From assembly GCA_944320965.1 (NCBI GenBank), contig CALUJO010000004.1, positions 1 to 64,000 on the forward strand: DNA of 64,000 bases. The letters are read 5' to 3'. The stretch comes from an uncultured Bacteroidaceae bacterium (GTDB lineage Bacteria; Bacteroidota; Bacteroidia; Bacteroidales; Bacteroidaceae). The position numbers and the translations under genes are program-made. Below the pieces are notes generated by a model. That model was not told the DNA's origin. It saw only the letters and a program-made list of their open reading frames with translations, and did no database searches. Positions 2,577 to 63,240 of this stretch are shown piece after piece; the first letter of the stretch is position 1; every line of letters starts with the position of its first letter.

Positions 2577-2660
2577 AACCGTAGTCTTCGGTTTTGAAAC
2601 TGGAACTTACGTTTCTGTAACCGAAGGCTTCGTTTTTAGAAATGCAGCTTGTGGTTTGGT
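2577..2660. repeat. 21-nt periodic array 1 (four units)
   Basis: Four consecutive 21-nt units start at 2577, 2598, 2619 and 2640. Each begins with AA and ends with a T-rich stretch. Units 1 and 3 approximate AACCGAAGnCTTCGGTTTT, which is nearly self-complementary; units 2 and 4 are more diverged. The array lies between the metG terminator and the dnaK upstream region and codes for nothing. Five other arrays with the same layout occur in this window. Confidence 0.8.
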
Positions 2661-12067: not shown

Positions 12068-12130
12068 AAACCGTAGCTTCGGTTTTAAAACCAAAGGCTT
12101 TGTTCTTGAAACCGAAGACTTCGGTTTTGG
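12068..12130. repeat. 21-nt periodic array 2 (three units)
   Basis: Three 21-nt units start at 12068, 12089 and 12110. Units 1 and 3 contain near-palindromes of the type ACCGAAGnCTTCGGTTTT; unit 2 is a diverged copy (ACCAAAGGCTTTGTTCTT). The array lies between the preceding terminator and the promoter of the CDF transporter gene, the same kind of position as array 1. Confidence 0.8.
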
Positions 12131-23058: not shown

Positions 23059-23122
23059 AACCGATGCTTTTGGTTATGAAACTGAACGTTTCGGTTGTAC
23101 GAACAAAGTTTACGTTTATATG
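23059..23122. repeat. 21-nt periodic array 3 (three units)
   Basis: Units start at 23059, 23080 and 23102 (21, 22 and 21 nt). They follow the AAC-n-GAA-n-TTCGGTT pattern more loosely than arrays 1 and 2 (for example ACTGAACGTTTCGGTT). The array lies after the Omp28 terminator and upstream of the susC promoter region. Confidence 0.7.
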
Positions 23123-38417: not shown

Positions 38418-38454
38418 ATGCCTTTTGCTGTCTGAATCATTGTATGTTTTTGCC

Positions 38455-38541
38455 TGAAGAGGTTGAATGTTTTGACTGAAAACATTCAATATATTTGCCT
38501 GAAACCTTCAACCATTTTGGTAAATATGCCCAATGTTTTTT
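38455..38541. repeat. 22-nt periodic array 5 (four units, different sequence family)
   Basis: Units start at 38455, 38477, 38500 and 38521. They share the layout TGAA-n-TTCAA-n-TTTTG rather than the ACCGAAG sequence of arrays 1-4. Units 1 and 2 form a perfect 11-bp inverted repeat (TTGAATGTTTT with AAAACATTCAA), and GGTTGAA of unit 1 is the inverse of TTCAACC in unit 3. It lies between the locus terminator and the trmB promoter. Confidence 0.7.
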
Positions 38542-57547: not shown

Positions 57548-57552
57548 TAATT

Positions 57553-57633
57553 AAAGACTGTGGTTTTGAAACTGAAGACTTTGGTTTTAAGAATGGAGCC
57601 TTCGGTTATATGAACTAAAGTTGCGGTTTGAGA
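57553..57633. repeat. 21-nt periodic array 4 (three full units and one partial)
   Basis: A short first unit (57553-57569) is followed by units starting at 57570, 57592 and 57613 (22, 21 and 21 nt). The pattern AACTGAAGACTTTGGTTTT and related forms matches arrays 1-3. It lies directly after the receptor terminator and before the phoH promoter. Confidence 0.75.
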
Positions 57634-63061: not shown

Positions 63062-63152
63062 ATATATAGTCTTTTATTGTTTGCCGGATATTGTTTGTTG
63101 CAAGTTTGTGCAATAATGTATCCGTCTTTCAGAAAGATTTAAGCTTATAAGA

Positions 63153-63240
63153 AAAACCTCCTGCCTTTTAGACGAAAACCTTTAATATTTTCGGTCAAAA
63201 GGCAGGAGGTTTTCTGTTAAAAGGCAGGAGGCTTTTGCGG
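63153..63240. repeat. 22-nt periodic array 6 (four units, third sequence family)
   Basis: Four exact 22-nt units start at 63153, 63175, 63197 and 63219, each beginning AAAA. Unit 1 carries AAAACCTCCTGCCTTTT; units 3 and 4 carry its reverse complement, AAAAGGCAGGAGGTTTT, giving a 17-bp perfect inverted repeat between units 1 and 3. Unit 2 differs. Sequence is unrelated to arrays 1-5 but the period and layout are the same. It lies between the nucleosidase gene and the copper ATPase promoter. Confidence 0.85.

Follow-up and report, generated by a model that had tools for sequence, protein, structure and literature searches.

Two-turn-phased intergenic arrays on a chromosome-wide lattice in Bacteroidales, candidate platforms for a chromosome-organising protein

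Within the 64,000-nucleotide stretch of an uncultured Bacteroidaceae genome analysed here (the window), short arrays of tandem units recur between genes, and the locus raises the question of what keeps their period while their sequence diverges. A preliminary description, which had noted six arrays with a 21-22-nt period, offered curved DNA, a nucleoid-protein platform or a diverging mobile repeat family as candidate explanations. All six were recovered to within 20 bp of the positions then given, their intergenic placement was borne out, and scanning the window with the models of families A and B (below) revealed no further array; the sole Rfam match in the window was one tRNA. The 2.57-Mb assembly (G000) gave no match to bacterial 16S rRNA, and its MetG shares 89% identity with records from Bacteroides and Phocaeicola.

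Two families of phased arrays between genes

The six arrays represent two unrelated families, A (starting at 2577, 12068, 23059 and 57553) and B (38435 and 63153). The first four had originally been united by a shared ACCGAAG core and set apart from the last two; this grouping was wrong, as the fourth (38455) lacks ACCGAAG and joins the sixth in family B, and the fifth (57553) does carry it, in the diverged form AAACTGAAGACTTTGGTTTT, and belongs to family A. Units of family A are near-palindromes of 17 bp, AACCGAAG-N-CTTCGGTT, joined by 4-bp linkers, and those of family B read AAAA-N9-TTTT, joined by 5-bp linkers. With genes called as longest ORFs rather than by a trained caller, named by Pfam, and no strand assigned to the arrays, the first A array (2577..2656) lies between dnaK and metG and consists of four 17-bp near-palindromes 21 bp apart (2577-2593, 2598-2614, 2619-2635 and 2640-2656). 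The second (12068..12128), flanked by one unassigned gene and one for cation efflux, has three units (AACCGTAGCTTCGGTT, AACCAAAGGCTTTGTTC and AACCGAAGACTTCGGTT); the third (23059..23117), flanked by genes for an Omp28-family protein and a TonB-dependent receptor, has three diverged units; and the fourth (57550..57629), which separates phoH from a gene for an outer-membrane beta-barrel protein, has four. One B array (38435..38541) holds five A4-N9-T4-type units at a step of 22 bp, with units 2 and 3 complementary at 7 of 9 core positions, units 2 and 4 at 8 of 9, and an RNA fold z of −3.05. The other (63153..63235) has four units, also at a step of 22 bp, and includes on the + strand a terminator-like stem (63153..63213) in which units 1 and 3 (AAAACCTCCTGCCTTTT and AAAAGGCAGGAGGTTTT) pair around unit 2 as the loop; the RNA fold of its region (63150-63216) is −32.9 kcal mol−1 (z −7.5).

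The phenomenon is much larger than the six arrays first noted. Across 464 kb of this genome, intergenic autocorrelation was in excess at lags 21 (z 7.2) and 22 (z 7.1) only, with harmonics near 42-44 and 63-65 and no peak at lag 10-11, and coding DNA showed the codon period and nothing else. The period is thus genuine, a lack of intergenic excess having been named beforehand as the result that would speak against it. Local arrays scoring at least 26/40 numbered eight at lag 21 and eight at lag 22 (0 and 0.1 in shuffles), with few at other lags. Profile scans returned 69 pair matches for A and 136 for B, against 1 and 2 in the reversed-sequence control, both profiles being built from and applied to one genome; the pattern searches with reversed-pattern controls used below are independent of them. 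The family models placed 64 A loci and 78 B loci genome-wide. Among 44 A arrays (149 units), 102 of 105 dyad steps measured 21 bp, and in family B 72 of 73 unit steps measured 22 bp, so that two-turn helical phasing was upheld; the single common period first proposed needs correction, the families differing slightly, A at 21 and B at 22 bp. Three units were found in 21 and four in 17 of the A arrays (38 of 44 together), two or five being rare, and units are hardly ever separated by indels.

The AT-rich unit edges would agree with neutral tandem duplication in which phased A/T tracts make the DNA curve. Bending predicted by a wedge model was clear against shuffles in family B (z 1.40), as this reading would have it, but slight in the arrays of the genus-mate G002 (0.46; below) and not above shuffles in family A (−0.32). 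Duplication also predicts raised identity between neighbours, yet adjacent units were no more alike than units from different arrays (z 0.6 in family A, −1.8 in family B); the narrow copy number and the near absence of indels likewise tell against it, and the placement of arrays along the chromosome is left unexplained. The spacing and identity tests already contradict tandem duplication, which we consider very improbable, and curvature, first put forward as a property common to the arrays, found no support as their shared cause, since family A is not predicted to bend and no 10-11 bp periodicity was seen.

The two halves of the family A dyad vary independently (half-site correlation 0.07), and no hairpin covariation was found across the dyads of the 44 arrays; positions 8 and 10, with one base between them, tend to match, though hairpin pairing is impossible there. 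Adjacent A units are furthermore less complementary than units from different arrays (z −2.7). Low neighbour complementarity, independent halves and identity not raised within arrays show that family A arose neither as hairpins nor by recent tandem duplication. A CRISPR array was rejected, the units being only ~65% alike and the linkers 4-5 bp; a requirement for one good half-site in each dyad was rejected too, the correlation of 0.07 giving it no support in A.

Family B differs in that complementarity between units k and k+2 exceeds chance (z 5.1). In ten aligned B arrays, 7 of 17 stem pairs were changed on both sides and 97.6% of cells were paired, which 0 of 500 shuffles reached; as these arrays were selected for the stem, the paired percentage is biased towards it, but the compensatory changes are not due to selection alone. 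A terminator-type stem, with compensatory changes and then a T run, was found in about half of the sampled B arrays, and 6 of 17 B arrays, compared with 27 of 165 intergenic regions, are flanked by convergent genes. The stems are probably two-way terminators made of units in 22-bp register, and some family B platforms probably terminate transcription. A broader reading would take all arrays as RNA elements working on transcript ends, with hairpins or terminators placed at the 3′ ends of genes. The pairing and paired changes in B, the strong fold at 63150-63216 and the convergent placement agree with it, and an RNA-level feature in about half of the sampled B arrays might alone explain those arrays. 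It is opposed by family A, with no covariation and with complementarity between neighbours avoided, it offers no reason for exact 21-bp steps, and it must also be weighed against the arrays of related genomes.

Arrays of other sequence in related genomes

Family A is confined to this genome, with 0 matches in four genus-mates, and family B is common to two of them (24 and 13 forward matches) and elsewhere falls to background. Related Bacteroidales proved to carry arrays of other sequence at the same spacing (G002, G018 and Bacteroides pyogenes), so that the early suggestion of spacing kept under sequence divergence was confirmed: the cores differ and the period is kept. Among named loci of the order, array periods, simple repeats excluded, peaked at 22 (17 arrays), 21 (6) and 23 (5) and echoed at 42 and 44. 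In contrast to these, no arrays at lags 20-23 were seen in 27 kb of intergenic DNA sampled outside the order or in 26 kb of E. coli K-12 once 7-bp simple repeats were excluded. Such repeats, for example TAATCAT (L128, L149, L185, L218 and L223), occur in intergenic DNA and create spurious peaks (lags 14, 21 and 28); any test of a 21-bp period requires their prior removal. One weak array only was seen in the 20 kb sampled of G009.

In the genus-mate G002 (family C), WWWCARAASTTYTGWWW has 428 exact matches (control 0). In 460 kb, 28 elements were located, of which 23 have exactly four units 21 bp apart; the core step was 21 bp in all 65 adjacent pairs, and the four-unit layout is consistent in both orientations. 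On either side of the core lie about four inward-pointing 22-bp blocks, over which conservation drops outward from the centre in 22-bp steps (1.61, 1.06, 0.84, 0.63, 0.38 and 0.09 bits), and no sharp edge was found across these four blocks. Four half-site variants occur (AAACAAAA, AAACAGAA, ATTCAAAA and ATTCAGAA; L084, L254-L273), yet identical halves face each other in 1% of units, compared with 26% expected, and in 0% across a linker; near-palindromes are thus kept and perfect ones avoided. Short ORFs were called within 4 of the 28 elements, a caution for annotation.

These arrays weigh further against the reading as RNA elements, for they lack covariation, disfavour complementary neighbours as family A does (z about −2.7), avoid perfect palindromes and often lie between divergent genes (8 of 28). 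Together with the 14-kb lattice described below, for which it gives no reason, we regard that reading as quite unlikely for the arrays as a whole.

In G018, the half-site CAATAAGG is used in either orientation, at spacings of 21 (++ or −−), 22 (+−) and mostly 20 bp (−+), which therefore amount to one reference point per 21 bp; the paired pattern matched 209 times (control 2 per strand). The type strain B. pyogenes DSM 20611 has a unit of its own (140 matches, control 3), spaced by 22-23 bp in 51 pairs among the matches listed. In G003 (L089-L093), C-type units were seen along with further 22-bp families (AACAAACCTTGTTATAGGCACT; TACCATTGTATGCTGTCGCCAC; AAATGGGTTACCCATTTTGCCC), so that this one genome has several. 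In G015 (L112-L114), the intergenic autocorrelation peaked at 43 and at neither 21 nor 22, which would suit a unit made of two half-units; the repeats of MITE464 in Porphyromonas gingivalis are 41 nt long. As to position, the dnaK-metG gap holds an array in G000 and none in G002 (C1:98815-103500; L257, L258), where an array of another family stands 281 bp beyond the opposite end of dnaK. Two gene ends bear arrays in both genomes (odds ratio 4.8, P=0.15), which is suggestive but not significant.

The chromosomal lattice and what it may serve

The larger pattern, overlooked in the preliminary description, is a near-regular spacing of arrays along the chromosome. Intervals between A and B arrays taken together within contigs had a median of 13.9 kb, with 67 of 88 between 8 and 18 kb. 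Their coefficient of variation (CV) was 0.50, compared with 0.90 for uniform placement (88 intervals; 0 of 5000 simulations as low), in a genome-wide test on match positions with the extents of some contigs interpolated, and 0.43 compared with 0.84 in the sequenced sample when draws were limited to intergenic slots. No interval shorter than 5 kb was found within A, within B or within the C family of G002. The two families also avoid each other: B arrays lay within 4 kb of 5 of 52 A loci, against 13.7 expected when B was rotated (P=0.0004).

Similar spacing was found in the relatives. In G002 the interval CV was 0.57, compared with 0.88 (P=0.002), and 0.57 compared with 0.90 with B-like arrays added. 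In G018 no interval fell below 5 kb (5.6 and 6.0 expected), and the CV was low on contig C2 (0.52, P=0.0009) and not low on contig C1 (0.96), where only exact matches were counted and arrays were thus missed. In B. pyogenes, among the matches listed and with some contig extents assumed, the median interval was 30 kb and the CV 0.40, compared with 0.88. As this lattice is common to unrelated sequences, it points to a constraint on platform position rather than one repeat's own behaviour.

Selfish dispersed repeats of the MITE kind, resembling BrickBuilt, with a transposase that binds their internal phased sites and with target immunity, as in Tn7 or Mu, that spaces the copies, would fit the many copies, the lineage-specific sequence, the symmetric ends of the A element (ATATTTTCTG-TAACCG), the consistent four-unit layout of G002 in both orientations, and the under-dispersion and avoidance within each family; a strict transposition-immunity rule acting across several families could also produce the lattice. 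However, the mutual exclusion of unrelated A and B is not predicted by family-specific immunity, conservation in G002 peaks at the centre and then fades with no sharp ends, and unit spacing is exact despite unit sequences that differ strongly both between and within arrays. In addition, the REP-type Y1 transposase (PF01797) gave no match in G000 or the four genus-mates. A mobile repeat family, as first suggested, is for these reasons not the best reading, and we hold it unlikely; target immunity is the main rival to an architectural platform, but would have to act between unrelated families.

Of the options first offered, the nucleoid-protein platform is the one that we favour. We propose, at a probability of roughly 0.55, that a sequence-specific, oligomeric DNA-binding protein attaches cooperatively to the arrays, which would serve as its platforms. 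Adjacent units are set at near-integral helical turns, by 21 or 22 bp in nearly all pairs in four genomes, and exact two-turn steps between half-sites that vary independently would be expected of proteins that bind cooperatively; this phased geometry, with a lattice shared by unrelated sequences, leads us to favour an architectural protein platform. What the data show is the phased geometry, the intergenic lattice with its mutual exclusion, sequence specific to each lineage, freedom from hairpin constraint in A and covarying stems in B; protein binding, the oligomeric state and the architectural role are what we infer. Each unit would comprise two half-sites flanking a dyad, or a single half-site that may point either way; with exactly two turns of B-DNA from one dyad to the next, the bound subunits would come to lie on one helix face. 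The centre-out fading in G002 would correspond to a strong nucleation core with weaker flanking sites. The platforms stand in intergenic DNA at near-regular steps of ~12-15 kb in this family, different families occupying one lattice, and their likeliest role would be to organise the chromosome, for instance as anchors or boundaries of supercoil or loop domains. From lineage to lineage the sequence changes fast, with geometry and density persisting, which would be expected were site and protein to co-evolve.

In a Hi-C study, neither Bacteroides caecimuris nor Muribaculum intestinale was found to have a known condensin, although B. caecimuris still aligns its chromosome arms, and some other organiser is thus needed there (PMC10197239). 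The arrays bear on chromosome organisation in such Bacteroidetes. A wider proposal, advanced tentatively and at slightly less than even odds, is that a lattice of nucleoprotein platforms sets the domain size of Bacteroidales chromosomes, one spacing rule being served by fast-evolving protein(s) on two-turn-phased sites every ~12-15 kb between genes, in an order where at least some members have no known condensins. If the arrays do organise the chromosome, the sites listed for the cultured type strain B. pyogenes DSM 20611 should make the protein obtainable with array DNA; if they prove mobile, they would be an unusual case of spacing common to different families.

Relation to described repeats and chromosomal sites

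REP/BIME elements are intergenic palindromic repeats associated with RAYT transposases (PMC2817692, PMC3733652). They resemble the present arrays in being lineage-specific, intergenic, palindromic and of many copies, with regular spacing inside a BIME, but differ in that here the genus has no Y1 transposase, family A is under no hairpin constraint, phasing is at two turns and a chromosome lattice exists. A REP/RAYT origin was rejected: with the Y1 transposase missing from G000 (89% complete) and the four genus-mates, it is excluded for the genus, and the dyads of family A do not covary.

Several protein-site systems share single features. The iterons of plasmid RK2 and the ArgR boxes present ~17-bp sites every 21-22 bp, with proteins on the same helix face; site size and step are alike, but those are single control loci and here there are dozens to hundreds of platforms. 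The matS/MatP and parS/ParB systems use dispersed palindromic sites that organise the chromosome; those sites are conserved, occur singly and are confined to Ter or ori, unlike the genome-wide arrays with fast sequence turnover found here. Tn7 and Mu ends carry several ~22-bp transposase sites in a row, and their target immunity spaces copies. Rows of ~22-bp sites coupled to copy spacing are thus common to both, but here no element or transposase was seen beside the arrays, G002 has no ends, and unrelated families exclude each other.

Tandem intergenic repeats have been described in one member of the order, as BrickBuilt of P. gingivalis, a MITE/minisatellite of 23-nt units that is always intergenic and has 19 copies, with up to 22.8 units, a sequence-specific leader and tail, and IS5-like inverted ends (PMC4596501). 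It is the nearest described repeat: it too is from Bacteroidales, with tandem 23-nt units lacking spacers, dispersed and intergenic. It is unlike the present arrays, which have 3-5 units, fading flanks (G002), 64-209 places per genome and family, several families per genome and a lattice. A MITE of this type is not supported, for sharp ends with terminal inverted repeats were not found, G002 being edgeless and A having a short symmetric edge motif only; BrickBuilt may belong, distantly, to the phenomenon seen here, although the ends differ. In the open-access literature searched, we found neither a chromosome-wide lattice of two-turn-phased arrays nor unrelated repeat families that share one spacing and avoid each other. 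The arrays of gut-type Bacteroidales look like the DNA half of a chromosome-organising system not described before.
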